Of a stretch of 64,000 nucleotides of DNA, positions 33,971 through 59,390 are shown one piece after another. This stretch comes from Terriglobales bacterium (GTDB taxonomy: Bacteria; Acidobacteriota; Terriglobia; Bryobacterales; Bryobacteraceae), in contig JAIXQP010000023.1 of the NCBI GenBank assembly GCA_027485675.1, forward strand, positions 124,001 to 188,000, read 5' to 3'. The number at the start of each line of letters is the position of its first letter. The first letter of the stretch is position 1. A program made the position numbers and the translations under genes. The notes beneath the pieces are model-generated. The model searched no databases, had not been told where the DNA came from, and saw nothing but the letters and a program-made list of their open reading frames with translations.

Positions 33971-34825
33971 ATGCGCCTCCTCGGCCTGCTCCTTTTCGGC
34001 GGTCTCCTCTGGGCCCAGCCCGTCACCAACGCCGCCGTCCACAGTCCCGGATCCGGACCCGCCAAAGGCCACCTGATGGTCATCGGCGGCGGCGCCCTCG
34101 GCCCCGAACTCCTCAGCCGTTTCGCCGCCCTCGCTGGCGGCCTCAATGCCCCCATCGTCGTCATCCCCACGGCCGGCGAAGGCGTCCCGCCCCTCGCCCG
34201 CCACCCGCTCCTCCGCCACGGCTTCACCAACGTCGTGCAACTTCACACGAAAGACCGCGCCGAAGCCAACTCCGACGCCTTCCTCGCCCCCCTCCGCGCT
34301 GCCAAAGGCGTCTTCATCGATGGCGGCCGCCAGTGGCGCCTCGTCGATAGCTACCTCGGCACCAAGACGCAGAAGGAGCTCGATAACCTCCTCGCCCGCG
34401 GCGGCGTCATCGCCGGCACCAGCGCCGGAGCCACCATCCAAGGCAGCTACCTCGTCCGCGGAGCCCGCGAAGGCAACACCATCATGATGGCCAAAGGCTA
34501 CGAAGAGGGCTTCGGCTTCCTCCGCAACGTCGCCATCGACCAGCACTTGATCGCCCGCAAGCGCGAGAACGATCTCGTCCCCGTCATCTCCTTGAAGCCC
34601 GAACTCCTCGGCATCGGCATCGACGAAGGCACCGCCATCGTCGTCACCGGCAACACGTTTGAAGTCATCGGCCCCAGCAAAGTCGCCATCTACGATAGCA
34701 ACTACGGCGTCGGTCCCGATGGCAAGCAATACTACTGGCTCGCCGCCGGCGACTGCTTCTCCCTCACGGCAAGAGCGAAGCAATCGTGCGCGCTGCCAGC
34801 TCCGTCCCGTCGAGCGGCTCCGTAA
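33971..34825 (+). CDS. exported S51-family peptidase (cyanophycinase-like)
   Basis: The product is 284 residues from the ATG at 33971, with a signal peptide (about 1-16, cleavage near LWAQ). The core reads HLMVIGGGALG, VVIPTAGEG, GVFIDGGRQWRLVD and the nucleophile motif GTSAGA with Ser151. A later GIDEGTAIVV matches S51 members such as cyanophycinase and dipeptidase E. Export suggests degradation of aspartyl or isoaspartyl peptides outside the cytoplasm. The last 20 residues overlap the convergent glycosyltransferase gene and look unlike the family; the natural end may be near residue 265. Confidence 0.85.
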   Translation: MRLLGLLLFGGLLWAQPVTNAAVHSPGSGPAKGHLMVIGGGALGPELLSRFAALAGGLNAPIVVIPTAGEGVPPLARHPLLRHGFTNVVQLHTKDRAEANSDAFLAPLRAAKGVFIDGGRQWRLVDSYLGTKTQKELDNLLARGGVIAGTSAGATIQGSYLVRGAREGNTIMMAKGYEEGFGFLRNVAIDQHLIARKRENDLVPVISLKPELLGIGIDEGTAIVVTGNTFEVIGPSKVAIYDSNYGVGPDGKQYYWLAAGDCFSLTARAKQSCALPAPSRRAAP

Positions 34826-35534
34826 AAAATCCCCGCAGCCGCGCCGCCTGGTCGTCATACCGCCGGGGGAAGGGAAGCGCCGTATGGTTCTTCCGCCCCA
34901 GCATATCGGCCATCACGTTATAACCCGCGCCGCTGTAGACCTGCGCCGCCCGGCCCATGACGTTGCACGCCGGATAGTAATTCAGGTTCACCACCGCCCG
35001 CGGCTCCGGCGCCAAAGCCACCAGCTCCGCCACCTCCGCCGCCGGCCCCGAATGCACCACCAGGTGCAACCCATCCCGGTCTAACTCCTTCGGCACCGGC
35101 GTCGCCACCCGCCCCGGCGCCAACCGGATCGGCCCCGGCAAACGCACCGCGTCCCCCGGCAACAACGCCTCCTGCTCCGCCGCCAGCGGCTCGGCCTGAA
35201 TCACCGCGTCGAACCCCGCCACGGCCACCGGCCGCAGCAACCGCCGCGCCACATGCACCATCGCCCGTGCCCGCGGCCGCTCCCCGCGCAGCCCCTGCGC
35301 AAACGTGTCCATCACCAGTACCGCCGGCCGCGCCTGCTCCACGTAAGCCTCCGCCTCCTCCGGCGCAACGCCCACTATCGGGCACCGCGCCAACCCCGCC
35401 ACGCCCCGCGCCATCGGCGAATTCGAAAGCAGCCGCGCGTCATGCCCCATCTCCCGCAGCGCCAGACAAACCGCCAGCCCCCGGTTCAGATGCCCCAACC
35501 CCGACCCCGGCGCGTAATAAGCAATCCAGCTCAC
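34764..35534 (-). CDS. GT28/MurG-like glycosyltransferase-related protein
   Basis: The product is 256 residues starting with GTG in a GTGA overlap. The N-terminus YYAPGSGLGHLNRGLAVCLAL is the GxGHxxR acceptor-domain signature of MurG/GT28-type glycosyltransferases. A C-terminal phrase, YSGAGYNVMADML, resembles their nucleotide-sugar binding region. The protein is about 100 residues shorter than typical MurG-like enzymes. It is the last gene of the 13-gene minus-strand run and overlaps the convergent S51 peptidase gene by 62 bp. Confidence 0.65.
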   Translation of the reverse strand: MSWIAYYAPGSGLGHLNRGLAVCLALREMGHDARLLSNSPMARGVAGLARCPIVGVAPEEAEAYVEQARPAVLVMDTFAQGLRGERPRARAMVHVARRLLRPVAVAGFDAVIQAEPLAAEQEALLPGDAVRLPGPIRLAPGRVATPVPKELDRDGLHLVVHSGPAAEVAELVALAPEPRAVVNLNYYPACNVMGRAAQVYSGAGYNVMADMLGRKNHTALPFPRRYDDQAARLRGFFTEPLDGTELAARTIASLLP

Positions 35535-36625
35535 GCCCCGGCCAGCCGCAACAAGTCGAGCAGCGCCTCCCGCTCCCGCTCGGCGGAAAATGTCTCCCGC
35601 ACAAATCGCTGTGCCTTGGCCGACAGCCCCGGCCAGTCCGGATGCTCCAGCGCCCGCGCCGTTGCCTCGCCCGCCGCCACCCGGTCTTCGGCGGGGAACA
35701 GAAACCCCGCCTCCCCAATCGGAATCGAAGCGTCGGACAAAATCGGCACCACCCCGCAGGCCATCGCCTCGAGCAGCACGTTCGGCATCCCCTCAAACAG
35801 CGACGGAATCGCCACGAAATCACACGCCCGGTACAGGCCCGGCAACTCCTCCGCCGCCGCGAACGGCAGCCGCAAGCTCCGCGGCGCAATGGCCGCGTCC
35901 TCCAGGATCATCGCCGTCGGCAGGTCCACCGTGCCGACAATCAACAACCGGATCCGCTCCAACACCCCCCGGTCCCGCACCGCCTCGAGCCACCATGGAA
36001 TCCGCTTCTTCGCCTTCAACTCGCCAAACAGGCCGATCACCTTGGCCCCCCCGCTTACCCGCAGCAATCCCCGGATCTCCTCCCGTCGCCGCAGGTCCGC
36101 CGGCAGCGGCTCCCACCGCGCCACGTCCACCGAGTTCGGCGTCCATTCCACCGGCTTGCCCGGATACAGCCGCCGGATCCGGTCCACCTTCTGCGGCGTC
36201 ACTGCGCCAATCGCCGCTGCCCGCGCAAACGCCTCCTGCACCCACGCGCTCTTGGCCGGATGAAACCAGTCCCGGTCCAGGTCGTTCCCCCGCACCAGCA
36301 CCACGCTCGGGCAGCCCAGCCACGCCGCGAACGTCACCGCATAGTATCCCGCCCCCGACGCGCCAAACCCCACGGCGGCATCATACGGCGGACGCAACTG
36401 TGCGAACGCCAGGTTCACCGCCAGCCCGTCCTCCGTATCCGGCGGAATCAGAAAGTCGACGCCATTATCCCGCGGCAGCGTCTCGAACGCCGCCGACCCC
36501 AGCACCACCACATCCACCGTGTGCCCGGCCTGCCGCAACTCCCGCACCTGCCGCTGACAGCTCGTCGCCATGCCGCCCCGCCCCGGCGGATAGTGTTCCG
36601 TGATCCAAAGCAGTTGTTTGCTCAC
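35531..36625 (-). CDS. glycosyltransferase family 4
   Basis: The product is 364 residues, GTG start. GT-B fold features are visible: a Gly-rich N-terminus (YPPGRGGMATSCQRQVREL), a linker region PNSVDVARWEP, and the donor-binding C-terminal part with SLFEGMPNVLLEAMACGVVPILSDA (the Glu-x7-Glu motif). GT4 enzymes retain the anomeric configuration and use nucleotide sugars. It overlaps both neighbours. The acceptor is unknown, but the cluster suggests a lipid or glycan carrier. Confidence 0.88.
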   Translation of the reverse strand: MSKQLLWITEHYPPGRGGMATSCQRQVRELRQAGHTVDVVVLGSAAFETLPRDNGVDFLIPPDTEDGLAVNLAFAQLRPPYDAAVGFGASGAGYYAVTFAAWLGCPSVVLVRGNDLDRDWFHPAKSAWVQEAFARAAAIGAVTPQKVDRIRRLYPGKPVEWTPNSVDVARWEPLPADLRRREEIRGLLRVSGGAKVIGLFGELKAKKRIPWWLEAVRDRGVLERIRLLIVGTVDLPTAMILEDAAIAPRSLRLPFAAAEELPGLYRACDFVAIPSLFEGMPNVLLEAMACGVVPILSDASIPIGEAGFLFPAEDRVAAGEATARALEHPDWPGLSAKAQRFVRETFSAEREREALLDLLRLAGA

Positions 36626-36924
36626 GTTTCAAACTCGTCGTAGCCTTCCGTCGTCTCCTTCTCCACGGACTTCCGATCCCTTCCCGAGAAGTATCCCGCC
36701 CCACCGTACTGTGTGTAGTAGCTGCTCCGCGTCGCCTCGAGTTCCGTCTCCTCGTTCTGTTCATACCCCTGCTGCGTATTCGCGCAACTGGGGCAAGCCG
36801 GCCCGCTCGGACCCATCACCGTATGTTCCATGCACAGAGACCGCCCGCAATGCGCGCATCCGCCCGCTGCCATTCCTTCGCACGGTTGGGGCACTAGCAG
36901 CCCCGTCTGCCATTGACATCTCAT
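36622..36924 (-). CDS. small zinc-binding protein, unknown family
   Basis: The product is 100 residues from the ATG at 36924 (ATGA overlap, GGAGG 4 bases upstream). The first 55 residues contain a Cys/His array (CEGMAAGGCAHCGRSLCMEHT, then CPSC) resembling a treble-clef or B-box-like zinc finger. The C-terminal 45 residues are acidic and rich in Tyr, Ser and Thr (SSYYTQYGGAGYF). No membrane segment. It sits downstream of two paralogous membrane proteins in the same operon. I do not recognise a family. Confidence 0.6.
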   Translation of the reverse strand: MRCQWQTGLLVPQPCEGMAAGGCAHCGRSLCMEHTVMGPSGPACPSCANTQQGYEQNEETELEATRSSYYTQYGGAGYFSGRDRKSVEKETTEGYDEFET

Positions 36925-37790
36925 CTCGCCTCCACCGGCCGCATCGAGCAAAGCCGGTACAACATCCCCACCGCTTCATCGCCACTCGGATTCTGCTTCG
37001 GCTTGGCGTCCTTCTCTTTGTAGACGAACCACCGGTCCAGCACCGCCACATCTAAGCCCTTTTTCTTGGCCACTCGCAATCGTTCCCACGTCGGATCTAC
37101 CCACGGCTGACCAACCCACTCCACCGGTCCCGGCGGCACGATTGTCGCCGTCAGCCGGCAGATCTTTTTGTACTTGGTCTTGGTCTTGTATCCCGTGCCC
37201 TTTCGCTTCAAACGCCGCACCTCGACATGTTGGTCCAGTTGTCGCAACGTGAGCGTGTAACCGTCGCGCAGTTGCAAACGAAGCTGGCACCAAGGGTCGG
37301 CATAAACAAACTGGTGGCGACTGGCAAACCCTCGCGCGGGCAGCTCCTGTCTCTCGCCCCGCTTTGCTTCCGTCGGCCCCGATAGGTCAACGTTCACCCG
37401 CACGGTTACCTTGGCGTCCAGGTCTTGCCGCACTTGCCGGAACAACTGCTGCACCATCGCCAGCGCGTCCTTCGGCAGCGCTTTTTTCGGCGGCCTTCGC
37501 CAAAACACCACCGAAACGATCAAATGCGCGATGCCCCCCACCAGGATCGCCGCCCCCATCGCCCCTTCGCCGTTGTCAATCACCTTCAGCCCGGCGATCA
37601 CGCACCAAACCGCCACCACAATCGCTGCAATCATCCACCTTTTCAGAAGCGCCAACTGGTTGTTCATCCCCGTTGCGTACGTCACTAGCTCTTTCAGCAA
37701 CTGGTCAAAGGCCGCGTGCTCCCACTCCCCGCGAATGGCCTGCATTTCGGCGGCCTGACGGGCCGCGGGCGAAAGATCATGGAGTCTCAT
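36921..37790 (-). CDS. membrane protein of unknown family, paralogue A
   Basis: The product is 289 residues from the ATG at 37790, chosen because MRLHDLSPAAR aligns with MELNQLSPAAR of the upstream paralogue. Two hydrophobic helices (about 52-70 and 78-97) follow a helical N-terminus (GEWEHAAFDQLLKEL). The C-terminal soluble domain contains DPWCQLRLQLRDGYTLTLRQ, KTKYKKICRLTATIVPP and DRWFVYKEK, all matched in the paralogue. This domain is basic and beta-rich. No known family or catalytic residues recognised. Confidence 0.65.
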   Translation of the reverse strand: MRLHDLSPAARQAAEMQAIRGEWEHAAFDQLLKELVTYATGMNNQLALLKRWMIAAIVVAVWCVIAGLKVIDNGEGAMGAAILVGGIAHLIVSVVFWRRPPKKALPKDALAMVQQLFRQVRQDLDAKVTVRVNVDLSGPTEAKRGERQELPARGFASRHQFVYADPWCQLRLQLRDGYTLTLRQLDQHVEVRRLKRKGTGYKTKTKYKKICRLTATIVPPGPVEWVGQPWVDPTWERLRVAKKKGLDVAVLDRWFVYKEKDAKPKQNPSGDEAVGMLYRLCSMRPVEAR

Positions 37791-37844
37791 AAGATCCGGT
37801 CCAGACACTCGAGAATTTGGCGACGCTCCCGAGGATAACCGAAT

Positions 37845-38726
37845 TCAAAGCTCGCTTGCAGGCCGCACCGAACAAGCCCGCAAAATCACCCCGGCTAACT
37901 CCACTCCCGTCGGCGTCTCCTTCGGCTGCTCCAACTTCTTCTTGAACAAGAACCACCGGTCCCAAACCGCCACCGTCCGGCCCTTCTTCGTCCCCGCCCG
38001 CACCCGCTCCCACGCTGGATCCAGCGGCGGAGGAGCCTGAAACTGCACCGGCTCCGGTGGCACCAGGGTCACCGTCACCCGGCACAGTTTCCGGTACTTC
38101 GCCTTTGTCTTCTGCTTCCCCCGCGCGTTCCGCCGCGTCCGCCGCAACTCGGTCACCTCATCCCGCTGCCGCAGACTCACCGCATACCCATCCCGCAACC
38201 GAAACCGCAGATAGCACCAAGGGTCCTGATACACCGCCTGCTCCTGACGCATCCAACCCGCCGCCGGCAGCGCCCGCAAGGGGCCCCGCTTCTCCGGGGT
38301 CAACCCGGCCAGATCAATCCGCGCCTGAATCTTCCCGTTCGGATGCAGGTCCCGGTAGATCGTTCGAAACAACTGAATCATCGCCTTCAGATTGTCCTCC
38401 GGCAGCGTCCACTTTTTCGCCTTCCTCCACATCACGCCAAATGCAATCGCCCCCGGAATGCTCGCCAATCCCACACTCAGCAGCACCCACCCCACCGTCT
38501 CCATCTCCTCGTCCAGCAGGATCACCCCCACAATCGTTCCTATAAACGCCGTGATGATGCACACCACCATCGCGCCCACCCGGAACGCTGCCCGCTTGTC
38601 CACCACCGTGTCAAACGCCAGCACTTGCTGCAGTACCTCGCCAAACGTGGCGTAATCCCATTCCCCGTTGATTGACTTACTTTCGGCCACGGCGCGCGCG
38701 GCGGGAGAGAGTTGGTTCAGTTCCAT
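37845..38726 (-). CDS. membrane protein of unknown family, paralogue B
   Basis: The product is 293 residues. It shares its order of features with the downstream gene: LSPAAR near the start, GEWDYATFGEVLQQVL, two membrane helices (about 50-70 and 76-98), DPWCYLRFRLRDGYAVSLRQ, KAKYRKLCRVTVTLVPP and DRWFLFKKK. The pair probably arose by tandem duplication and may form a heteromer. The start overlaps the 3' end of the upstream glycosyltransferase gene by 10 bp. Function unknown. Confidence 0.65.
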   Translation of the reverse strand: MELNQLSPAARAVAESKSINGEWDYATFGEVLQQVLAFDTVVDKRAAFRVGAMVVCIITAFIGTIVGVILLDEEMETVGWVLLSVGLASIPGAIAFGVMWRKAKKWTLPEDNLKAMIQLFRTIYRDLHPNGKIQARIDLAGLTPEKRGPLRALPAAGWMRQEQAVYQDPWCYLRFRLRDGYAVSLRQRDEVTELRRTRRNARGKQKTKAKYRKLCRVTVTLVPPEPVQFQAPPPLDPAWERVRAGTKKGRTVAVWDRWFLFKKKLEQPKETPTGVELAGVILRACSVRPASEL

Positions 38727-39829
38727 AGCACCCGACGAAACAAATCCTGTAATCGCTGATGCACGTGAGCATAACTGAATTCCCGCTCCGCCCGCAGCCG
38801 CGCCGCCCCGGCGTACCGCGGAGCGTCCTGCAACATGCTATAGAGCGCTTGCGTCCACGCCCGCCGGTCCCCCGGCGTCACCAGCATCCCCTCTTTCCGG
38901 TCCTCCACCAGCTCCCGCACCACCGCCAGGTTCGATACCGCCACCGGCACCCCCGCCGCCATGCTCTCAATGATCTTCACCGGGCAACACCCCTGCACTG
39001 TATTCCGCGGCGTTTCGAGCAGCGGCGCCACCGTAAACTCCAGCCGCCGCAGCGCCGCCGGCAGCGCCGTATGCCCGAGCGGCCCAATAAAATGCACCCC
39101 CTCCGGCGCCCGCTTCGGCGCCCGTTTCTCCGTAATCACCGCCATCCGCACCCCCGGCACATCCGGCGCCAGCCGCCGGAACGCCTCCCACACCACCTCC
39201 ACCCCCTGCCACGGCTGCAACCCTCCCACGTAGCCAAACCACCGCCCCTCCTCTAACTCCGGCGCCGGGCACGGCCCCGGCTCGCTTGCAAAAAAGTAAG
39301 GCGCCGCCGCGTTCGGAATCACGGTCGCCTCCGGCCGCCCCAGCGCCCGCGCCGTCACCGGCGAAACACACAAAATCTCCCGAGAATGTTTCAAACAAAA
39401 CCGTTCGATATCGGCCACCTTCGCCTGCAGCGCCGCGTTGGCCGCAAACCCCGGCCGCGAATAGGCCAACTCCCAACTCGGCAGCGCGTTCACTTCAAAA
39501 ATCGAAGGCGTCCCCGGACAAGCCCGCAGCAGCGGCGCCCCGCCCCACGGATCCCGGTACACCACCAGCTCCGCCCCCTCTCGGGAATGCTGCGTCACGA
39601 ACTGCGCAAACGCCGTCGCCCGCCCCAGCAAGTCCGGGTATCGCGCCGGCAAACGCCGAATCCCAATACCCCCCTCCTCCTGCTCTGCCGGCAGCCCCGG
39701 CGCGCCCAGGCACAGCACCGTCACCCGGTCGCAAACGCCCCGCAGCGCCGTCACCATCGAAGCAATATGGCTCGATGAGCCCTTGCCGCGCGGAAACACG
39801 TCAAAGGCCGCATAGATCGCCCGCGTCAC
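38717..39829 (-). CDS. glycosyltransferase family 4
   Basis: The product is 370 residues, GTG start in a GTGA overlap with the PQQ dehydrogenase gene. GT-B features: N-terminal FPRGKGSSSHIASMVTAL, the hinge VIPNAAAPYFF, GYVGGLQPWQGVEVV, and the donor site VKIIESMAAGVPVAVSNLAVVREL containing the Glu motif. It is one of four glycosyltransferase-type genes in this run. The acceptor is not identifiable from sequence. Confidence 0.87.
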   Translation of the reverse strand: MTRAIYAAFDVFPRGKGSSSHIASMVTALRGVCDRVTVLCLGAPGLPAEQEEGGIGIRRLPARYPDLLGRATAFAQFVTQHSREGAELVVYRDPWGGAPLLRACPGTPSIFEVNALPSWELAYSRPGFAANAALQAKVADIERFCLKHSREILCVSPVTARALGRPEATVIPNAAAPYFFASEPGPCPAPELEEGRWFGYVGGLQPWQGVEVVWEAFRRLAPDVPGVRMAVITEKRAPKRAPEGVHFIGPLGHTALPAALRRLEFTVAPLLETPRNTVQGCCPVKIIESMAAGVPVAVSNLAVVRELVEDRKEGMLVTPGDRRAWTQALYSMLQDAPRYAGAARLRAEREFSYAHVHQRLQDLFRRVLWN

Positions 39830-42117
39830 GGCAATGAAAAAACGAGCAACGCCGAATCATTGGAAATGCCGATGTATTGCTTGCCATCCATCGAAAATGC
39901 CATCGGCGAACTCCGCATCGAAGCACCCGTCTGCTGATGCCACAAAATCTTCCCGTTCCCGGCGTCCAGCGCCATCAGGTTCCCGTCCTTCGACGCCGCA
40001 AACACCAATCCCCCCGCCGTCGCCAGCACCCCCGCCGCATGCGAACCCACTTGAATCGGCGTGCTCCATTTCAAATCGCCCGTCGCCGGATCCAGCGCCC
40101 GGATGAATCCCCGCTCGCCAATCTTCTCGTCCTCCCGCTGCCCGCCGCCCGTGTACGGCTGTCCCGGCTCCGGCCGCTTCTTCTCGGTGAAGTAGGTCGC
40201 GCACGTCTCCCGCACGGTCAGATAGAACAAGCCCGTCTTCTCGCTATACGATGGCGCCGCGAAGTTCGTCCCGCCCAGCGCATCCGGGCAAACATAGTTG
40301 CCCTCCGCCGTCGGCGTCGTATTCGGCAGCACAATCGCCCGGCCCCGCGAGTCCAACCCCTTCGCCCAGGTCTGCTTCGTGAACGCCTGCCCGGCCACGA
40401 ACTCGCCCGTCACCCGGTCAATCGCGTAGTAGAACGCGTTCCGGTTCGCCATCACCAGCAGCTTCCGCTTCTGCCCCTTCACGACCGCGTCCAGCAGCAC
40501 CGGCGTCTCGTTGGCGTCCCAATCGTGCACATCGTGCGGCGTGTATTGGAAGTGCCATTTGATGCGCCCCGTCGCCGGGTCCAGCGCCAGCACGCTATCG
40601 CTGTAGAGGTTATCCCCGGCGCGCGTTTCGCCATCATAGTCCGGCCCCGGATTCCCCGTCGTCCAGAACAGCGTATTCGTCTCCACGTCGAACGTCCCCG
40701 TCATCCATGTCGGCGCCCCGCCGTACTTGGCCGAATCGCCCGCCCACGTCGCCCGGTTTGGATCGCCCGGCGGCGCCACCGTATCCGTCCGCCACATCCG
40801 CTTCCCCGTCGCGGCATCGAATGAATAAACAAACCCCGTCAACGCACACTCGCCCGCGGTAATCCCTACGGCAATCTGCCCGTTCAGTGCCAGCGGCGCA
40901 TGCGTAATCGAGAACCCCTTCCGGTAATCCTCCACCTCGACATCAAAAACCACGTTCCCCGTCTTGGCGTCCAGCGCCACCAGATGCGCATCCAGCGTCG
41001 CCAGGTAAACCCGGTCGCCCAGAACCGCCACGCCCCGGTTCGTCATCACCGTGCAATGGCTATGCACCTCCGGCAGGTTCCGCTTATACTCCCAGATCAC
41101 CCGCCCCGTCCGCGCGTCCAGCGCCGCCGCGTTGCTCCGCGGCCCGGTCACGAACATCACCCCGTCCACCACCACCGGCACCGTCTGAATGTTCGAAGCG
41201 CCAAACTGATACGTCCACGCGTTCCGCAAACTCCCCACATTCGCCGGCGTCACCTGGGCTAACTCCGTGTAGTGCTGCCCGGCGAGATCGCCCCAATAGG
41301 TCAGCCAGTTCTGCGGCTCCCGCCGCGCGTTCTTCAGCCGCTCCCACGTCACGTTGAAGTCCGCCGCCGGCTTCCAAGCCACCGGCTCCACCGTCCCTGA
41401 CTTCAAAAACGCAAGCACATCGTTCGTCTGCGTCTCCGTCAATTTCGCCGCCGGCATCAGGCTCGCATGCGTCTGCGTCACCTCCCGCACGTTGGCCTTA
41501 TCCAGGAAATGCAGCTTCTCCTGCCGGTCCATCAACTGAATCGAAAACGTATCTTCGTTCTTCGCCACGCCCGTCAACGTCCGCCCGTCGCGCAGCGTCA
41601 CGTTCACCGTCCGGAACCCGGGCCGCAGCTTCGCGCTCGGCTCCCGCAGCGACGTCCGCAACTCCTCCTGCCGCCGCTCCTTGGCAATCGTCGTCAGGTC
41701 CGGCCCCAACCGTCCGCCTCGGCCCTGCACCATATGGCAGCTCCCGCATCCCGCCGCCCCGAAAAACAGCGCTCCCCCCGCCTTCGCATCGCCCGTGAAC
41801 GCCGCCTCCGTCTTCGCCCCTTCAAGCGACCGCAGGTACGCCACCACGGCCTTGGCGTCCTCCTCCGGCATCGGAAACGCGGGCATCTGCGTCCCCGCAA
41901 TCCCCTTCACGATGTTCCGTTGAATGGCCTCGTCGCTGCCGCCGGATTTCCAATCGCCCCGCGTCAGGTTCGGCGCCCGGCCCCCCAACGCCCGCGCCCC
42001 GTGGCACGCCGTGCAATTCTTCTCGAAGATCTCGCCGCCCCGCGCTACGGGATTTGCGTGCGGAGACTGCGCCAGCGCCACCCCGGCCACCAACAGAAAT
42101 CGTACGATCATCCGCAC
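39826..42117 (-). CDS. exported PQQ-dependent dehydrogenase with two N-terminal c-type heme domains
   Basis: The product is 763 residues. A signal peptide (about 1-17) precedes a cytochrome c domain with CTACH (35-39) and a Met ligand near 78-83. A second heme domain of the Pirellula/Verrucomicrobium type follows (GCGSCHMVQGRGGRLGPDL, CxxCH at 124-128). From about 260 onward is an eight-bladed PQQ propeller (WEYKRNLPE, PHDVHDWDANETPVLLD, GNGKILWHQQTG). Quinohemoprotein alcohol dehydrogenases carry heme at the C-terminus; here two domains are N-terminal. Both hemes need the Ccm system encoded at 25063-31579. Confidence 0.88.
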   Translation of the reverse strand: MRMIVRFLLVAGVALAQSPHANPVARGGEIFEKNCTACHGARALGGRAPNLTRGDWKSGGSDEAIQRNIVKGIAGTQMPAFPMPEEDAKAVVAYLRSLEGAKTEAAFTGDAKAGGALFFGAAGCGSCHMVQGRGGRLGPDLTTIAKERRQEELRTSLREPSAKLRPGFRTVNVTLRDGRTLTGVAKNEDTFSIQLMDRQEKLHFLDKANVREVTQTHASLMPAAKLTETQTNDVLAFLKSGTVEPVAWKPAADFNVTWERLKNARREPQNWLTYWGDLAGQHYTELAQVTPANVGSLRNAWTYQFGASNIQTVPVVVDGVMFVTGPRSNAAALDARTGRVIWEYKRNLPEVHSHCTVMTNRGVAVLGDRVYLATLDAHLVALDAKTGNVVFDVEVEDYRKGFSITHAPLALNGQIAVGITAGECALTGFVYSFDAATGKRMWRTDTVAPPGDPNRATWAGDSAKYGGAPTWMTGTFDVETNTLFWTTGNPGPDYDGETRAGDNLYSDSVLALDPATGRIKWHFQYTPHDVHDWDANETPVLLDAVVKGQKRKLLVMANRNAFYYAIDRVTGEFVAGQAFTKQTWAKGLDSRGRAIVLPNTTPTAEGNYVCPDALGGTNFAAPSYSEKTGLFYLTVRETCATYFTEKKRPEPGQPYTGGGQREDEKIGERGFIRALDPATGDLKWSTPIQVGSHAAGVLATAGGLVFAASKDGNLMALDAGNGKILWHQQTGASMRSSPMAFSMDGKQYIGISNDSALLVFSLP

Positions 42118-42121
42118 GAGT

Positions 42122-42520
42122 CTATCGAATGGACTTCAAATACTCCAGCACCGCCTCGGCATCCGCCCGGTTGAACTTATACGCCGGCATCGGAGGCGCC
42201 GACGGCTCCCCCTTCGGCGTCAGCCCCGTAGTCAGGTACTTCAGCATGCTCAGGTCGCCCCACTTCACCCACAGCCGGCTCCCCGCCGTCAGGTCCGGCG
42301 TCGTCTTCTTCCAGTTCGGCGGCGCCGCGCCCAGCGGCTGAAAGTCCAGCACCGCGCCCTTCAACCACTTACTCCGGTCGAGTACGCCCTTATCCGTCTT
42401 CGGCGTATGGCAATCCCCGCACATCGCCACGTTCTCGACGAGATACTTGCCCCGCTCCACCAACTTCGGATCCGCCGCCGCCAAAGGCAGCGCCAAAAGC
42501 ACCAAGAGAAAGTACCGCAT
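42122..42520 (-). CDS. small exported cytochrome c
   Basis: The product is 132 residues with a signal peptide (about 1-16). It has one heme site, CGDCH (34-38), and a likely Met ligand in SAPPMPAYKF. The size and AMCGDCHTP context match diheme-free class I c-type cytochromes used as electron acceptors. It ends 4 bp upstream of the diheme PQQ dehydrogenase gene and probably takes its electrons. It lies 8 bp after the ABC permease gene. Confidence 0.88.
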   Translation of the reverse strand: MRYFLLVLLALPLAAADPKLVERGKYLVENVAMCGDCHTPKTDKGVLDRSKWLKGAVLDFQPLGAAPPNWKKTTPDLTAGSRLWVKWGDLSMLKYLTTGLTPKGEPSAPPMPAYKFNRADAEAVLEYLKSIR

Positions 42521-42528
42521 ACCTCAGC

Positions 42529-45500
42529 TTACTCTGACCGCAGCGATTCCAACAAAGGCGCCCGCAACGCCGCCCGTGTCGCCCACACCGAAGCGAGCAA
42601 CCCCGTCACGAACACCGCCGCCAGCAGCCCCGCAATCGCCAGCATCGGCGGAGCCTGCCCTCGTTCGTACAGCGTCGGCGCCACGGCCAGCAACGCGCAC
42701 CCCACCCCCACCGTCAACCCGAACGCCAGCAGCAGCACGTTCTCGAGCACAATCACCTGCGCCACCTCGCCGCTCGTGAATCCCACCGCCCGCAGCAGCG
42801 CCAACTCCCGCCGCCGCTCCAGCACATTCCGCAGCAGCACCGCCCCCAACCCGAACGTCCCCAGCACCAAACCCAAAGCCCCCAACGCCTGGAACGTCGA
42901 CAGGTACGCATGCTCCACTTTCAGAAACTGCGCCAGCTTCTCCCCCACCGTCATCACGTCCAACCCCGAATCCGAAAACTGCTCCTCCAACCCCGCATCC
43001 GGTTCTTTCTCGAACAGCATCATCCGGAACCCCTGCTCCCCCGGAAACGCCGCCAAGAAAGCCTTCTCCCCCACAATTACTTCGCTCTGAAACACGCTCC
43101 CGGAAAGCGTCGCGACGAACCGCACCCGTACGCCCCCATCGAGCGTCATCTCATCGCCAATCTGCTTGTGCAAGATGTACTGCAGTGAATTCGCATCCGC
43201 CGCCGCCGGCAACGCCCCGTCGGCCCGCGGCGCATCCAACGCCGGCATCATCCCCTCCGGCAACGCCACCACCTTCGGCCGCGTCGGCGCGTACAGGTTC
43301 AAGCAGCTCGCGTCCTGGCCCGGCCGCACCCGCAGCATCAACGCCCCGTCCAGCTTCTCGTACACCGGCGACTGGCTCTCCCCAAAATACGCATACTTCC
43401 CAAACGCCAACGCCGACCCCGGCGGATGCCGAAACGCCTCGAGCGAAATCAGCAAAAACGTCGCAAACGCAATCAGCGCAATCGTCATCATCGACCGCGT
43501 CGGCCGCTGCCCCGCATTCGCCCATGCCAACCGCCCCAGCGAATCGAAATCCCCCCGAATCCCGGCCTCCAACAAAGCCCGGCTCCCCAACGCCCCGCCG
43601 ATCAGCAACAAAAATCCCGCGCCGAAAAACCCGCCCTCCGCTGGCATCCGACCCGCCGCCGCCGCCCCGGCCAACAGCAACCCGCCCGCCAGGAACCCCA
43701 CCGCCACCCACCGCAGCCGCGCCGCCGTCCGCGGCAGGTCATCCAACTGCCGCCCCGCCAGTAGGTCATGCGGCGACAAACCCCGCATCCGCCGCAGCGT
43801 AATCACCACCACCAACACGCTCACCACCACGCCCGGCAACACCGCCCCCCGCAACGCCGCCGCCGTGAAATGCAGCGTCAACGCCTGCGTCCCCACCGCA
43901 TCGTTCCACCACGTCCGCAACCCATACAGCAACCCGCTCGAATACAGCCACGCCCCCGCGCAGCTCAGCGCCGTCCCCAATAAACCCAGCACCAAACCTT
44001 CCCGCACAAAAATCCGCCGCACGTCCGCCCGCGTGTACCCCACGGCCAAATACAAGCCAATCTCCCGCAGCCGCTGCTCAATCCCTAACCGGAAAAACAG
44101 CGCCGTCAGCAGAAACGCCGAGATCATCACGAACCCGCTGAACATGCCAAAGTACATGCCGAAGTCCGTGCTCCCCGCCGAAGCGGCCAGCGCCTGCTCC
44201 CGCAGCGGCAGCCGCGTCAATCCGTCCTTGGCCAAATCCACGCTCGGCACAAACCCCGCAATCCAAGCCTGCTCCTTCCCCCCCGGGTACATCCGGACAG
44301 AAGAAACTTCCCCAAACCGCGAACCCCAGATCCGCTGCCCATCCGCCAGCGAGACAAACGCCTTCGGCGTCGTCTTGTACTGCTCCCAATACCTCTCATC
44401 CACCGGCCGGATCTTATTCAAGTCCATCGGAAACGGAGGATCCCAATCCGCCACCGTATCCGCATCGCTGATGCCCGGATAGTCCGGCGCCATCACCCGG
44501 TCCCCCAGCGTCGTCCCCCCGGCCACGCTGAACATCTCCTTCGCCGTATCCAGCTTCCCCTCTTGCCGCCAGACGTAATACTCCAGCTCCAACTTATCGC
44601 CCGGCTTCGCGCCCAACTCCCGCTGCGTCCACGCGTTCAGCCGGATCCCCTCTGTCACCTCCGGCGTCGCCGTCACGAGCGAATACGGAACCTCTTTCCC
44701 GTCCACCCGCATAAAGTTCGCCAGGTACGTCAACAGCGGCTCCGCCCGCAGTCCCAACTTCTCCGCGGTCGCCTGAATCCTCAGCACCTGCTCCTCGCGG
44801 AACAGCCCCGACGAACTCTCAATCTGCATCCCCCCCGGCACCGGCCGCAGCTTCAGCCCCAAATCTTCCATCCGCAGCCCGTCCTGCAGTTCGGCGTCCG
44901 TCACCCCAGGCCCGCTTACCAGCAACACATTCGCCCGCCCGGCCTGTTCGAGCTCCTTCTGCAGCGTCGACAGCGCCACGTACACAACCCGCAACTCCCC
45001 CTGCTGCGGCTCCAAAGCAAACCCGCCTGGCGCCGACTTCTTCACGCGAAACCGCACCGTCCTGACGGACCCTTCCCGCCGCCCATGCAACGACTCCTGC
45101 GGAATCTCGCTCGGCTTCTCGATCCGCACCAGCACCCCGTCCCCGGCCTTCGCCCCAAACTCCCGCGCCAGCGCCTCGCTCACCACCGCATCCCGCTCCC
45201 CCAGCGCCTCCGGCTCCAAACCCTGCAGCTTCCAATACCGCTCATCCACCCCGTAAATCAAAACCTTCGACGCCGACCGGTTACTCTCCTGGTGCTTCAC
45301 AATCCCCGTGAAATGCAGCACCGGCGCCATCCCCCGGCCCTTCATCGCCAGCCGGTCCGCCAACCCCTCCGTGAACGGCAACGCCGCCACCACCGCCGAA
45401 TCCACGCGCCCCAGCCGCGCCAGCGCCAACTCCTTCAGCGAAGCCTGCACCGACTCGCCCACAATCTGCGCCCCCACCATCACCGACACGGCCACCGCCA

Positions 45501-45558
45501 CGCCGAACACCACGGCCAGATTCGTCCGCCAAAACCAAAGCAGGTTCCGCCTCATCAC
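42529..45558 (-). CDS. FtsX-family ABC transporter permease (1009 aa)
   Basis: The product is 1009 residues, starting with GTG-ATG in a GTGA overlap with the ATPase gene. After one N-terminal helix comes a large periplasmic part (about 50-490). A first FtsX core (about 495-660, with IEQRLREIGLYLAVGYTRADVRRIF) and a second core at the C-terminus (LERRRELALLRAVGFTSGEVAQVIVLE) follow. Two FtsX domains in one chain resemble DUF214/YbbP-type permeases rather than the shorter MacB or LolC. Such systems move lipids or export hydrophobic compounds without crossing the bilayer directly. Confidence 0.88.
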   Translation of the reverse strand: MMRRNLLWFWRTNLAVVFGVAVAVSVMVGAQIVGESVQASLKELALARLGRVDSAVVAALPFTEGLADRLAMKGRGMAPVLHFTGIVKHQESNRSASKVLIYGVDERYWKLQGLEPEALGERDAVVSEALAREFGAKAGDGVLVRIEKPSEIPQESLHGRREGSVRTVRFRVKKSAPGGFALEPQQGELRVVYVALSTLQKELEQAGRANVLLVSGPGVTDAELQDGLRMEDLGLKLRPVPGGMQIESSSGLFREEQVLRIQATAEKLGLRAEPLLTYLANFMRVDGKEVPYSLVTATPEVTEGIRLNAWTQRELGAKPGDKLELEYYVWRQEGKLDTAKEMFSVAGGTTLGDRVMAPDYPGISDADTVADWDPPFPMDLNKIRPVDERYWEQYKTTPKAFVSLADGQRIWGSRFGEVSSVRMYPGGKEQAWIAGFVPSVDLAKDGLTRLPLREQALAASAGSTDFGMYFGMFSGFVMISAFLLTALFFRLGIEQRLREIGLYLAVGYTRADVRRIFVREGLVLGLLGTALSCAGAWLYSSGLLYGLRTWWNDAVGTQALTLHFTAAALRGAVLPGVVVSVLVVVITLRRMRGLSPHDLLAGRQLDDLPRTAARLRWVAVGFLAGGLLLAGAAAAGRMPAEGGFFGAGFLLLIGGALGSRALLEAGIRGDFDSLGRLAWANAGQRPTRSMMTIALIAFATFLLISLEAFRHPPGSALAFGKYAYFGESQSPVYEKLDGALMLRVRPGQDASCLNLYAPTRPKVVALPEGMMPALDAPRADGALPAAADANSLQYILHKQIGDEMTLDGGVRVRFVATLSGSVFQSEVIVGEKAFLAAFPGEQGFRMMLFEKEPDAGLEEQFSDSGLDVMTVGEKLAQFLKVEHAYLSTFQALGALGLVLGTFGLGAVLLRNVLERRRELALLRAVGFTSGEVAQVIVLENVLLLAFGLTVGVGCALLAVAPTLYERGQAPPMLAIAGLLAAVFVTGLLASVWATRAALRAPLLESLRSE

Positions 45559-46223
45559 GACACTTCTTCCAACCGCCGCCCCGCCATCCGGTATCGCCGC
45601 TCCATCCGCCCCGCCAGCGCCGGGCTATGCGTCACGACCACCATCATCATCCCCGAATCGCTCTGCAAATCGAGCAACAACGCAATCACTTCCTCTGCCG
45701 TCCGCTCGTCCAGGTTCCCCGTCGGCTCATCGCACAGCAACAACTGCGGCTGCCGGATCAACGCCCGCGCAATCGCCACCCGCTGCTTCTCCCCGCCCGA
45801 AAGCTCCCCCGGCCGGTGATGCAGCCGCTCGGCCAATCCCACCCGCCGCAGCAACTCCTCGGCCCGGTCTTTCGCCCCCGGGTCCGCCTTGCCCACCAGC
45901 GTCGGCGTCAACACGTTCTCCCGCACCGTACACTGCGGCAGCAGGCAATGGTCTTGGAAAATAAACCCGATCTTCTCGTTCCGAAACCGCGCCTGGTCCG
46001 CCTCGCCCAGCTGCAACGGCCGCACCCCGTCGAACTCCATCGTCCCGCCCGAAGGCGCGTCCAGCAGGCCCAGAATATGCAGCAGCGTACTCTTACCGCT
46101 CCCCGAAGGTCCCACAATTGAGATGCGGTCCCGCCGCACTATCTTCAGGTCCACCGCCTCCAGCACCGGCAACTCCCCGGCCGCCGTCCGATAGACTTTC
46201 GAAATCTGGCTAAGTGTGATCAC
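45555..46223 (-). CDS. ABC transporter ATPase, LolD/MacB type
   Basis: The product is 222 residues, GTG start. Motifs are canonical: Walker A GPSGSGKST (38-46), Q-loop FIFQDHCLLPQCTV, signature LSGGEKQRVAIARAL and Walker B LLLCDEPTGNLD, with an H-loop in VVTHS. The LPQCTVRENV and RVGLAERLHHRPGELSGGE phrases are those of mechanotransmission-type ATPases paired with FtsX permeases. It is translationally coupled to both the permease and the glycosyltransferase. Confidence 0.92.
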   Translation of the reverse strand: MITLSQISKVYRTAAGELPVLEAVDLKIVRRDRISIVGPSGSGKSTLLHILGLLDAPSGGTMEFDGVRPLQLGEADQARFRNEKIGFIFQDHCLLPQCTVRENVLTPTLVGKADPGAKDRAEELLRRVGLAERLHHRPGELSGGEKQRVAIARALIRQPQLLLCDEPTGNLDERTAEEVIALLLDLQSDSGMMMVVVTHSPALAGRMERRYRMAGRRLEEVS

Positions 46224-47455
46224 GCGACTCCATGGTAAACGTCCAGGGCCGCCCGCGTCATCGCCTCAATCGAGTAGTGCTCCCGCACGCCAGCCAACCC
46301 CTTCGCCCCCAACTCCCGCCGCAGCGCCGCATCGTCCCGCAGCTTCGCAATCGCCTCGGCCAGCGCCCCCGGGTCCTTCGGAGGCACCAACAACCCGCCC
46401 CCCGTCTTCCGAATCATCTCCGGAAACGCCCCGTGCGCCGGCTGCACCACCGGCGTCCCGCAAGCCCAACTCTCGAGCACGAAAATCCCCTTCGGCTCCA
46501 CATAATCCGTCGGCACCGAAAGCACATCCACGCTCTGCAGGAACTTCGCCTTCCCCTCGCGATCCGGCGACCCGTGGTAGATCATCCGCTTCTCCCACTT
46601 CGCCAGATACTCCCGATGCTCCGGCAAGTTATACCCCGCCGCATGCAGCTCAACACCCTCTAGCCGCTCCACAGCCTCAATCAGATTATGCAGCCCCTTC
46701 TCCGGAGCAATCCGAGCAAAGAACCCCACCCGAAACCCTGCATGACTCTTCTCCGCCGCACCCAACCCCTCAAAATTAATCCCCAGCGGCACCACATGCA
46801 CCTTCTCCGCCGGAATCCCCAAGTACCCCGTCATGTACTCGGCGTAGTATTCGCTCGTCGCGATAAACGCGTCCACATGCTTCACCTGCGCCCGAATCAG
46901 CTCCATGCTCCGGCTCCGCCACGGCTCATGCAGCCCATCCAAAAACAGGTCCTCGCCCTGCAAAGTGCAAACCACCGGCGACCCCGTCACCCGCTTCATC
47001 GGCTCGGCAAACGAGATCAGCAGCGTGAACGGCAGGCTGATCACGTCCGGCTTGCTCTCCGTCGCCAGCCACTCGCACAGCTTCCCAAACTCTTTCTGGA
47101 TCGGCCCGTGCTCCCCTTCCAGCATCGAAACCGTCATCTCGCCCAGAAACTTCGGGTCCACCGCCACGCCCCGCTGCGACGCCATCCGCAGCGCCGCATT
47201 CGAGTCCCAGAGCTTATCCAAGAACTTCGGCGTATGCCGAAACAGCGCCGACTTCTGCTGCAGATAAACGCTGATCCCGCCAAAGAAAACCCGGTTCAGG
47301 CTATAGTTCGCCTCGTCCGTCAAAGTAGGCGTATATACGGGCACGAGGACCACATCGTGGCCCTCGGCGTTCAACTCACCCGCCAGCGCGTTGTCGCGCA
47401 TGCAGGAGCCGCAGTACATATTCGCGGCCCCCGCTGTGATGTAAACGATCTTCAC
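46220..47455 (-). CDS. glycosyltransferase family 4
   Basis: The product is 411 residues, GTG start overlapping the upstream stop by one base (TAGTG). The N-terminus ITAGAANMYCGSCMRDNALAGEL is a variant GT-B acceptor site. Other features are VPLGINFEGL, GFFARIAPEKGLHNLIEAV and FVLESWACGTPVVQPAHGAFPEM, the donor-binding Glu region. It directly follows the reductase pair and precedes the ABC genes, which suggests that the reduced product or a linked lipid is glycosylated before export. Confidence 0.87.
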   Translation of the reverse strand: MKIVYITAGAANMYCGSCMRDNALAGELNAEGHDVVLVPVYTPTLTDEANYSLNRVFFGGISVYLQQKSALFRHTPKFLDKLWDSNAALRMASQRGVAVDPKFLGEMTVSMLEGEHGPIQKEFGKLCEWLATESKPDVISLPFTLLISFAEPMKRVTGSPVVCTLQGEDLFLDGLHEPWRSRSMELIRAQVKHVDAFIATSEYYAEYMTGYLGIPAEKVHVVPLGINFEGLGAAEKSHAGFRVGFFARIAPEKGLHNLIEAVERLEGVELHAAGYNLPEHREYLAKWEKRMIYHGSPDREGKAKFLQSVDVLSVPTDYVEPKGIFVLESWACGTPVVQPAHGAFPEMIRKTGGGLLVPPKDPGALAEAIAKLRDDAALRRELGAKGLAGVREHYSIEAMTRAALDVYHGVA

Positions 47456-48885: not shown

Positions 48886-48888
48886 GGC

Positions 48889-49980
48889 TTAGTACACCCC
48901 CTCAACCACGGACTTCTGGAACCGCGAAAACGGCCGCACGTTCCGCACCCCGTCCCACGGATACTGCTCGCAAGGCGCTTCCCGCTCGCACTCATCGCGC
49001 TCCAGGAACCGCGGAATAAAGGTCTCTTTCGTCAGCGTCGTCAGCCGCACCCGGCCCGTCGCCCCGTAGTCCACCACCTTCGTCGCATCGTCGAAATCCA
49101 CGACCTCTAACACCGCCCGCGGCACCGGCGGGTAGTAGATGATCGCCCAGTTGTCCTCCGGCTCCGGCGCCTTATGCGTCGCCAGACCCATCAGCGTGTT
49201 GCCGTACGTCGGCGCGAAGTAGATGTTCGGCCCCAGCAACTCCTCCACCGCGAAGCGATGGAACTGCGGGGTCATCTCCGTGCCACCACAGAACACACCC
49301 TTAATCCCCGCTTTCTCTAAATTGACCTTCTCGCACAAAGCCTCCAGCAGCTTCGGCGTCGTGAACATGCACTTCACTTCGTGCGCCCGCAGAATCGTCA
49401 ACGCCTGGTCAATGCAGTGCTGCTTATACAGCTCGGCCTCCTGCAACTGCCCCCGCTTGATCAGCTTGATCACCCAACGCGGATCCAGGTCCACCGAGAA
49501 CGCAATGCCACCCCGGTGCTGCGCCAAATGCTCCACCGCCAGCCGCAGCCGCCGCGGGCCGCTCGGTCCCAGCATCAGCCAGTCCGCACCCTTCGGGAAG
49601 TGCTCGTCCGGCAGGGTCTCTGAAAAATTCTCGTAGTCAATCCGGAAGTCGTCCATCTGCACCCGCGACTTCGGAATGCCGGTCGAACCGCCGGTCTCAA
49701 ACACATATACCGGCCGGTGCGCCAAGCCCTTCGGCACCCAGCGCCGCACGGGGCCGCCGCGCAGCTCGTCATCCTGGAAGTTCCCAAACTTGTCCAGGTC
49801 GGCGTACGACGTCACCTCTTTCCGCGGGTCCCAGCCCGCCTCTTGCGCCCAGTTCAGCCAGAACGGGCAGCCGGTCTCGGGGTTGAAATGCCATTCAACC
49901 ATCTCGCGCACATGAGCGTCCAGACGCTCCTTGTTCGCTTGTACTTTTGCAAAAAGATCGGGTTGGGTCGCGGTACTCAT
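48889..49980 (-). CDS. LuxE-like adenylate-forming enzyme (acyl/aryl activation)
   Basis: The product is 363 residues from the ATG at 49980 (an ATG at 49986 would add MA). The phosphate-binding loop FETGGSTGIPKSRV (95-108) is followed by GVFCGGTEMTPQF, YFAPTYGNTLMGLA and DYGATGRVRLTTLTKETFIPRFLERDE, the motif order of adenylate-forming ligases of the LuxE/phenylacetate-CoA ligase group. The chain is short, as in LuxE. It probably activates a carboxylic acid for the reductase encoded next. It is the first gene of the 13-gene run. Confidence 0.75.
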   Translation of the reverse strand: MSTATQPDLFAKVQANKERLDAHVREMVEWHFNPETGCPFWLNWAQEAGWDPRKEVTSYADLDKFGNFQDDELRGGPVRRWVPKGLAHRPVYVFETGGSTGIPKSRVQMDDFRIDYENFSETLPDEHFPKGADWLMLGPSGPRRLRLAVEHLAQHRGGIAFSVDLDPRWVIKLIKRGQLQEAELYKQHCIDQALTILRAHEVKCMFTTPKLLEALCEKVNLEKAGIKGVFCGGTEMTPQFHRFAVEELLGPNIYFAPTYGNTLMGLATHKAPEPEDNWAIIYYPPVPRAVLEVVDFDDATKVVDYGATGRVRLTTLTKETFIPRFLERDECEREAPCEQYPWDGVRNVRPFSRFQKSVVEGVY

Positions 49981-58008: not shown

Positions 58009-59390
58009 TCTGGCCCATCCTCCTCCTCGCCTTCGTCGATTGGCCCCAGTTCCGCGGCCCCGAAGCCCTCGGCGTCAGCGAAGGCCACAAACTCCCCACC
58101 GAGTTCAACGCGAAGAAGAACGTCGTCTGGCAGGTCCCCCTGCCCCCCGGCCATTCGTCCCCCATCGTCGTCGGCAAGCGCCTCTTCGTCACCGCTGTCG
58201 AAGGCGAAAAGCTGCTCACCATCGCCCTCTCCACCGAAACCGGCAAGGAGCTCTGGCGCCAGGAATCCCCCCGCCCCCGCAAAGAGAGCTTCCAGAAAAC
58301 CAACACCGCCGCCTCCCCCTCGCCCGCCTCCGACGGCCAGCGCGTCTATTCGTTCTTCGGCGATTTCGGCCTCCTCGCCTACACCGTCGAAGGCAAACCC
58401 GTCTGGCAGATGCCCCTCGGGCCCTTCAACAATCCCAACGGCCACGGCTCCTCGCCCATCGTCGCCGACGGCACCGTCGTCCTCATCTGCGACCAGGACA
58501 CGAACTCCTACCTCCTCGCCGCCGACGCCAAAACCGGCAAGGTCAAATACAAAATCGAGCGCCCCGAAGTCACCCGCGGCTACGGAGTTCCGGCTCTCTA
58601 CAAACCCAAGTCCGGCCCCGTCGAAATGATCATCCCCGGCGCCTACCTGACGGTCGCCTACAACTTCGCCACCGGCGAAAAGCTCTGGTGGTTCGGCGGC
58701 ATGTCCTGGCAGTCGAAGAGCCCGCCCATCCTCATCGACGGCATCATGTACCAAAGCTCCTGGGAAACCGGCGGCGACGGCCCCATGCCCGAAGTCCCCC
58801 AGTTCGACGAGATCCAGGCCGCCCACGACAAGGACAACAACGGCAAGCTCGACGCGACCGAAGCCCTCGCCTACGGCATCAAAGCCGGAGGCTTCACCGC
58901 CGCCGACCTCGACCACGATGGCTTCCTCGACTCTCGCGAGTGGAGCTTCTACCGTATGTTGAAGCAGACCCGCAACGCCCTGGTAGCGGCAAAGCCCGGC
59001 GGCCGCGGCGACGTCTCGAACTCCCACGTCCTCTGGCGCTACTCGAAGTCCCTCCCCAATACCTCCGCGCCCCTCTACTACAACGGAGCCCTCTGGATCG
59101 TCAAAGACGGAGGCGTCCTCACGACCCTCAACCCCAAGACCGGCGAAGTCATCAAGCAAGGCCGCCTCACCGGAGCGTTGGAGCAATACTGGGCCTCCCC
59201 CGTAGCCGGCGATGGAAAGGTGTACATGATCAGCGCCGCCGGCAAGGTCGTCGTGCTCAAAGGAGCCGGCGAATGGGAGATCCTCGCGATGAACGAGCTC
59301 GACGACGAAGTCTTCGCGACCCCCGCCATCGTCAACGGCCGCATCTATCTCCGCACCCGCAACTCGCTTTACTGCTTTGCCCAGCTTTAA
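58005..59390 (+). CDS. exported PQQ-like beta-propeller with internal EF-hand (second of tandem pair)
   Basis: The product is 461 residues from GTG at 58005, which overlaps the previous stop and has AAGGAGG 4 bases upstream. The signal is very short ([17 protein letters not shown]). Propeller repeats correspond one to one with the upstream gene. The insert carries EF-hands [12 protein letters not shown] and [12 protein letters not shown], better conserved than in the first copy. Both copies share the GRGDxxxxxVLWRYxKSLPNT segment. No catalytic function recognised. Confidence 0.85.

Follow-up and report, generated by a model that had tools for sequence, protein, structure and literature searches.

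A conserved unit of an EhpF-type adenylating enzyme, an aldehyde dehydrogenase-fold reductase and a glycosyltransferase, possibly a small-molecule module, in Acidobacteriota and other phyla

The stretch of DNA analysed here (the window) comprises 64,000 nucleotides from a soil bacterium of the Terriglobales (phylum Acidobacteriota, family Bryobacteraceae; contig JAIXQP010000023.1, positions 124,001 to 188,000). Between positions 34764 and 49980 it carries 13 consecutive open reading frames (ORFs) on the minus strand, the first three of which encode an adenylating enzyme of the EhpF type, a reductase with the fold of an aldehyde dehydrogenase (ALDH), termed EhpG-type, and a glycosyltransferase, GT4a. 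Intergenic distances range from -31 to +36 bp, the -31 bp overlap depending on the uncertain start of a small cysteine-rich gene (36622..36951). An earlier description of this DNA (the original prediction) had reported thirteen tightly packed genes with gaps of at most 54 bp; the run is confirmed, with the distances given here. Genes are numbered from the EhpF-type gene (gene 1) down to gene 13, and counts out of 16 refer to loci from the host's family with at least 13 kb of sequence downstream of EhpF.

48889..49980, minus strand: gene 1, EhpF-type adenylating enzyme, 363 amino acids, core gene; PDB 3hgu/3l2k at E 3e-43, AMP-binding at 32 bits
47455..48885, minus strand: gene 2, EhpG-type ALDH-fold reductase, 476 amino acids, core gene; Aldedh at 62.6 bits; Cys288 and His252
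46220..47455, minus strand: gene 3, GT4a glycosyltransferase with an N-terminal CGxC motif, core gene; Pfam GT4 domains
45555..46223, minus strand: gene 4, ATP-binding cassette (ABC) ATPase of the LolD/MacB type, frequent GT4a neighbour
42529..45558, minus strand: gene 5, FtsX/MacB-type permease, 1009 amino acids, frequent GT4a neighbour; FtsX at 87 bits in two stretches
42122..42520, minus strand: gene 6, monoheme cytochrome c with one CGDCH, near relatives only (3 of 16 loci)
39826..42117, minus strand: gene 7, pyrroloquinoline quinone (PQQ) alcohol-dehydrogenase-like protein with two N-terminal CxxCH motifs, lineage-specific (1 of 16); PQQ at 272 bits
38717..39829, minus strand: gene 8, GT4b glycosyltransferase, lineage-specific (1 of 16); Pfam GT4
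37845..38726, minus strand: gene 9, paralogue A, probable membrane protein (by reading), lineage-specific (1 of 16); no family over cut-off
36921..37808, minus strand: gene 10, paralogue B, probable membrane protein (by reading), lineage-specific; 42% identical to paralogue A
36622..36951, minus strand: gene 11, small Cys-rich protein of uncertain start, lineage-specific; overlaps the preceding gene by 31 bp
35531..36625, minus strand: gene 12, GT4c glycosyltransferase, lineage-specific (1 of 16); Pfam GT4
34764..35534, minus strand: gene 13, no assigned family, lineage-specific (1 of 16)

Most of the annotations proposed originally hold. The adenylating enzyme, the ALDH-type reductase lacking the usual glutamate, the FtsX ABC pair, the cytochrome c with one CxxCH motif and the diheme PQQ protein with two all stand. 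Three of the four proposed glycosyltransferases are GT4 proteins by Pfam, whereas the fourth, gene 13 (34764-35534), gave no Pfam family over cut-off, no NCBIfam family and no credible PDB sequence match. The two supposed paralogous membrane proteins are indeed paralogues, and their membrane nature is probable by reading. The designation 'zinc protein' is not retained for gene 11, which is Cys-rich by eye only and matched no Pfam or NCBIfam family.

The first two genes, separated by 3 bp, are best read from their sequences as encoding a two-component carboxylic acid reductase. Residues 22-363 of the EhpF-type protein align with residues 22-366 of 3l2k (phmmer), nearly full length and to the same end, and no match to the AMP-binding C-terminal domain was found in Pfam. 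The two EhpF entries, 3hgu and 3l2k, were the sole solved relatives in the PDB search besides a chance-level match to a beta-glucosidase (E 0.089). The model of the EhpG-type protein (mean predicted local distance difference test score, pLDDT, 87.3) has an ALDH fold; an EhpG profile returned no PDB match at E 1e-20, and searches with a single sequence, at E up to 0.1, return ALDHs. Both the catalytic Cys288 and His252 are invariant in 15 of 15 aligned sequences, and in the alignment His252 pairs with the position of the general-base glutamate of ALDHs. Retention of the cysteine with loss of the general-base glutamate is expected of an acyl reductase.

Similar gene pairs are found on plasmids of other bacteria. 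A phenazine operon of a Pantoea plasmid, its type read from the gene order, has an ALDH gene directly after the EhpF-type gene (31% identity to the window's EhpF-type protein and 26% to its ALDH), and on a Streptomyces goshikiensis plasmid (L228) an aminodeoxychorismate synthase gene has an AMP-binding/ALDH pair in its vicinity (37% and 27%, respectively). On another Streptomyces plasmid the EhpF-type gene precedes a polyketide synthase and has no ALDH gene beside it. The annotation 'arylcarboxylate reductase' is attached to several EhpF relatives on plasmids and fits our assumption that GriC belongs to the EhpF family; GriC and GriD are set beside the window pair by description, not by sequence. 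EhpF and EhpG themselves presumably act as an acid reductase. GriC is described as forming the acyl-AMP of 3-amino-4-hydroxybenzoate and GriD as reducing it to the aldehyde (PMC10179220). Relatedness to EhpF/ALDH pairs, the cysteine kept with a histidine in place of the glutamate, and the GriC/GriD chemistry together underlie the reading of the window pair as a two-component carboxylic acid reductase. Since GriC/GriD reduces an aryl acid to an aldehyde, an acid-to-aldehyde step by EhpF and EhpG appears well supported by sequence and analogy, and an aromatic acid is the probable substrate.

The extent of the conserved unit was assessed by comparing gene order. Of 101 family genomes, 28 (with the window's own among them) hold EhpF, and 16 of the 30 family loci fetched have at least 13 kb downstream of it. 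When genes were scored at 38% identity or more and 30% coverage or more, EhpG was found downstream of EhpF in 13 of these 16 loci, GT4a in 12, the ABC ATPase in 8, FtsX in 7 and the cytochrome c in 3, and genes 7-13 were all confined to a single one; two loci (L038 and L041) have no partner genes near EhpF. A broader survey of named genomes kept the best 80 of at least 576 EhpF relatives, which by their titles derive from Acidobacteriota, Planctomycetota, Poribacteria, Verrucomicrobiota, KSB1, Calditrichia and others; EhpF identity to the window is 63-83% in 79 of these loci, which are the best by selection, and 96% in the congener. Thirty-seven of these 80 loci exceed 20.5 kb; 30 of them have EhpG no more than 3.5 kb downstream of EhpF, 22 have GT4a anywhere in the locus, and 18 have an ORF of a beta-propeller cluster (PQQ_2 domain) no more than 4 kb upstream. 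Neighbour clusters were built by single linkage, in which ABC and GT4a proteins fell into one cluster that was split by length, and some loci cover one place twice (for example L031 and L061). EhpF and EhpG are adjacent within and beyond the Acidobacteriota, although in some relatives EhpG is not adjacent, and the order EhpF-EhpG-GT4-ABC-FtsX is kept mainly within the Acidobacteriota; elsewhere blocks are rearranged or unlinked. Thus, the conserved unit is EhpF, EhpG and one GT4 protein (GT4a), often with the ABC/FtsX pair and PQQ_2 propellers, and not the 13 genes. The comparison across Acidobacteriota proposed with the original prediction therefore bears out the first part of the run, while genes 7-13 recur, among the 16 family loci, only in the closest congener.

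These genes are also inherited together. EhpG occurs in exactly the 28 family genomes that hold EhpF, and GT4a in all 28 of them against 5 of the 73 family genomes lacking EhpF. Across 396 genomes of the phylum, EhpF was found in 79, GT4a in 89 and both in 77, GT4a being present in 12 of the 317 genomes without EhpF. For 149 Planctomycetota, GT4a is present in 32 of 32 genomes with a close EhpF against 11 of the other 117, and in none of the seven with a distant EhpF only; distant EhpF-type genes were seen in Planctomycetota genomes without GT4a at L216 and L217. GT4a is also present in 27 of the 28 genomes chosen from the 80 loci as EhpF holders (26 of the 28 being outside the Acidobacteriota by their titles), and at the level of genera it is found in 47 of 49 with EhpF (211 genera sampled). 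The exceptions in the phylum are one genome with only a distant EhpF (G344; E 2e-81) and one with EhpF near a contig end (G374). Thresholds were E 0.001 for EhpF in the family and phylum and 1e-40 in the Planctomycetota, where 'close' means 1e-100 or better; 1e-60 for GT4a in the family and phylum and 1e-40 in the Planctomycetota and the 28 picked genomes; 1e-60 for EhpG; and 1e-100 for the radical S-adenosylmethionine (SAM) protein discussed below. The window's own genome is counted in the samples, and two of the 149 Planctomycetota genomes (G512 and G505) had been known as EhpF holders in advance; Fisher tests treat genomes as independent, and the sampled genomes share ancestry. In four genomes (G064, G284, G589 and G641), EhpF and GT4a lie on one contig hundreds of kilobases or more apart, so that their co-occurrence indicates a link beyond mere adjacency; in G064, EhpG adjoins GT4a and not EhpF.

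A tree of EhpF sequences (133, reduced to 118 by dropping near-copies, with ORFs below 330 amino acids left out) placed 113 of the 118 in a single set with a support value of 99; the sequences outside it are two from Streptomyces, one from Pantoea and two distant ones from planctomycetes. The method was a quick one and the outer branches are very long. The EhpF genes of family loci L057-L060 group with planctomycete and verrucomicrobial sequences. At these loci the EhpF/EhpG pairs have no GT4a beside them.

GT4a forms a subfamily of GT4. Its model (mean pLDDT 87.8) is closest in fold to the methylmannose polysaccharide mannosyltransferase GlgM, MshA and sucrose-phosphate synthase, with BshA close behind and PglA, PimA and WaaG also lower among the neighbours; several enzymes of the GlgM, MshA, sucrose-phosphate synthase and BshA types take small acceptors. 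A C[GA]xC motif lies in the first 160 residues of 84 of 87 GT4a ORFs, the three misses being one ORF with YCENC and two long ORFs with extra sequence in front, and both of its cysteines are invariant in 15 of 15 aligned sequences. Where at least 6 kb of downstream sequence was at hand (55 of the 87 GT4a genes), FtsX follows in 33 and both ABC and FtsX in 29. The window's ATPase scores 245 bits against the NCBIfam LolD equivalog, under its cut-off of 308, and hence is not a LolD equivalog by that model; the single 1009-residue permease adjoins the ATPase, with no second permease gene in the run.

Three PQQ_2 (BamB-like) beta-propeller genes, with starts assigned by reading, lie on the other side of EhpF.

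50017..51405, plus strand: propeller 1, 462 amino acids, probably exported (by reading), divergent from EhpF; PQQ_2 at 110 bits
56608..58008, plus strand: propeller 2; PQQ_2 at 133 bits on a longer ORF
58005..59390, plus strand: propeller 3; PQQ_2 matches at the corresponding place in the genome (C18:182113-183384)

Such propellers lie upstream of EhpF at loci from several phyla; neither they nor the unlinked co-occurrence of EhpF and GT4a entered the original account. The window's genome holds 79 PQQ_2 domain matches, and the propeller link is therefore weaker than the others. The start codons of EhpF and propeller 1 (49980-50017) are separated by some 36 bp at most, which leaves hardly any space for promoters between them. 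A TonB-dependent receptor gene (51441-53879, plus strand) lies between propellers 1 and 2, and such a gene is also found upstream of EhpF in near relatives (L031, L032 and L061); a nitroreductase-family gene (59377-60018, plus strand) follows propellers 2 and 3, a grouping seen likewise in L061, L063, L068 and L092.

A larger version of the cluster is found in four Planctomycetota loci (L211-L213 and L215). Besides the genes of the module, these carry an SSF symporter and a further propeller; an iron-containing alcohol dehydrogenase (Fe-ADH), a PaaK-like ligase, a HemN/HutW-like radical SAM protein, a halogenase-like flavoprotein and a hotdog (4HBT) thioesterase; and two small proteins, one a membrane protein and the other with a weak match to 2nwi. 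Separate ORFs were not seen for the small membrane protein and flavoprotein in L212 or for the ABC ATPase in L215. The best NCBIfam model for the flavoprotein is the CmlS halogenase, and QhpG, LodB and GoxB match too, all below their cut-offs. Of the 396 phylum genomes, 64 encode the radical SAM protein, 62 of these together with EhpF, and it is missing at threshold from 17 of the 79 EhpF-bearing genomes, the window's own included. The small protein matching 2nwi (L206, L211, L212, L213 and L215) gave no Pfam or NCBIfam match in the two of five members scanned and one weak PDB profile match, to 2nwi (E 0.0021), a 'hypothetical protein' that we take to be chorismate-lyase-like. In these planctomycete genomes only, an aromatic acid is suggested by the PaaK-like ligase, the thioesterase and the possible chorismate lyase.

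Taken together, these observations suggest that the conserved part of the run is a small-molecule module for aryl acid reduction, glycosylation and export, a reading to which we give a probability of about 0.5. Comparison demonstrates the family relationships, the gene order and the co-inheritance; the substrate, the product and its export are what we infer. EhpF would activate an aromatic carboxylic acid as the acyl-AMP, and EhpG, with NAD(P)H, would reduce this to the aryl aldehyde after the manner of GriC/GriD. GT4a would then add a sugar to the aldehyde or to the corresponding alcohol. In genomes that have the LolD/FtsX-type ABC pair, this pair would carry the product into the periplasm or to the outer membrane, and exported PQQ_2 propellers might bind or oxidise it there. 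In some other genomes, further tailoring may be contributed by Fe-ADH (to the alcohol), the HemN-like radical SAM protein, the halogenase-like flavoprotein, the PaaK-like ligase, the thioesterase and the possible chorismate lyase. The first two steps are proposed because of characterised relatives, and glycosylation and export because of co-inheritance and neighbourhood. The odds that GT4a acts on the product of EhpF/EhpG seem about even, export of the product by the ABC pair is a tentative assignment, and a role for the propellers is doubtful.

Several observations weigh against the proposed module. Identity to the compared reductase pairs is only 26-37%, and the branch leading to the EhpF clade is long. 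Three genomes (G003, G031 and G061) have EhpF beside GT4a without EhpG, their single EhpG lying with a second EhpF. GT4a is present without a (close) EhpF in 5, 12 and 11 genomes of the family, phylum and Planctomycetota samples, and may thus have a job of its own. ABC and FtsX were not both recognised after 26 of the 55 GT4a genes, which makes the exporter a frequent but not a fixed partner. The chorismate-lyase assignment comes from the one weak 2nwi match. The window's genome has no radical SAM protein (best match only E 9e-34), and the other tailoring genes, sought at the locus only, are absent there; the window thus has a shorter version of the cluster.

The strongest alternative is that the genes decorate the cell envelope, an aryl aldehyde or acyl group being attached to an outer-membrane glycan or lipid; GT4a would build the carrier, and LolD/FtsX would transport a lipid or lipoprotein instead of the small product. 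The transporter genes score best as LolD and FtsX, GT4a and FtsX occur together apart from EhpF in six loci (L183, L196, L209, L218, L220 and L222), and the window run encodes three GT4 proteins. The additional GT4 proteins are, however, lineage-specific, and no FtsX was recognised near GT4a in loci such as L184, L190 and L199-L202. Enzymes with small soluble acceptors stand among the fold neighbours of GT4a as well as PglA, PimA and WaaG, and because these acceptor types are mixed the fold does not decide the matter. On this evidence we regard envelope decoration as unlikely.

That all 13 genes form one pathway, with the diheme PQQ dehydrogenase acting on the exported product, as originally proposed, is improbable. 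The genes are packed like one transcription unit, and their order is identical in the closest congener (G004, locus L031); that congener is also the one locus in 16 that has genes 7-13, and in another relative (L063) a methyltransferase follows the cytochrome c. Gene 7 scores 497 bits against TIGR03075, over its cut-off of 480, and 507 bits against TIGR04528 ('acido-empty-quinoprotein'), below its cut-off of 650. PqqE, the only Pqq protein sought, reaches at best 69 of 381 bits in the window's genome (97% complete), and 14 control genomes likewise have none over cut-off. Genes 7-13 are thus a lineage-specific extension of the run that need not belong to the pathway, and the PQQ dehydrogenase, being lineage-specific, probably lies outside it. 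A class I/II aminotransferase gene (32900-33952, minus strand) is found 811 bp downstream of the run, and relatives of it lie near the EhpF locus elsewhere in the Acidobacteriota (for example L034, L039, L088 and L089). Plus-strand genes at 29361-31420 resemble CcmA/B/C and have, by reading only, the look of cytochrome c maturation genes.

It is likewise rather improbable that the product of the module is a redox-active aromatic cofactor used by the adjacent quinoprotein-like propellers. QhpG, LodB and GoxB help to make built-in quinone cofactors, and the idea draws on the propellers upstream of EhpF in several phyla, the lack of a PqqE over cut-off, and the planctomycete radical SAM protein and flavoprotein.

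The original prediction had likened the first two genes to LuxE and LuxC, in which case a fatty acid would be reduced to a fatty aldehyde. Adenylation and reduction to an aldehyde remain probable, the overall logic is the same in LuxE/LuxC, and FtsX-type transporters can move lipids; the family assignment fell. The hidden Markov model search of 47455-49980 gave no match to PF05893 or PF04443 at E up to 1: gene 1 returned AMP-binding only, and for gene 2 Aldedh was the sole family over cut-off. The only strong solved relative of the gene 1 product is EhpF, whose pathway begins from phenazine-1,6-dicarboxylic acid (PMC3175449). We therefore consider reduction of a fatty acid very improbable. Least probable of all is a chance neighbourhood of widespread genes: PQQ_2 propellers, ABC transporters and GT4 proteins are common and the counted genomes share ancestry, but the co-occurrence repeats in separate samples, also where the genes are far apart, and the seven Planctomycetota with a distant EhpF only have no GT4a.

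The enzymes of the preferred small-molecule module are of known kinds, and reductases like these are familiar from Streptomyces and Enterobacterales, where they take part in antibiotic biosynthesis. Neither the module nor its cross-phylum reach was found described in the open-access full-text literature, a scope outside which most subscription journals fall, and both appear to be undescribed. A distinct and strongly conserved EhpF clade is common to Acidobacteriota, Planctomycetota, Poribacteria, Verrucomicrobiota and others, and its co-inheritance with one glycosyltransferase even where the genes are unlinked suggests a widespread, undescribed metabolite. Such a metabolite would belong to phyla whose chemistry is poorly known, and the short gene list makes it directly testable.

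Several known systems resemble parts of the module. The EhpF system of D-alanylgriseoluteic acid biosynthesis (Pantoea/Enterobacter agglomerans) has a like adenylating enzyme, and in the Pantoea plasmid operon taken to be of this kind an ALDH gene directly follows; there the operon contains Phz-type genes (PMC3175449), whereas the window instead has GT4a, the ABC/FtsX pair and propellers. GriC/GriD of grixazone biosynthesis in Streptomyces griseus, as described in PMC10179220, follows the same logic from aryl acid through acyl-AMP to aryl aldehyde; the likeness is one of description, and the pair compared in its stead was that of L228, a similar neighbour pair of putative function. LuxE/LuxC shares the logic of activation and reduction, although the window proteins match neither Pfam family. 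The transporter belongs to the same ATPase and permease families as the LolCDE/MacB-type (FtsX) systems, but its ATPase falls below the LolD cut-off and it has one permease gene. Finally, GT4a shares its domains and fold with the GT4 enzymes of the MshA, BshA and GlgM types, among which it constitutes a subfamily with an N-terminal CGxC motif.

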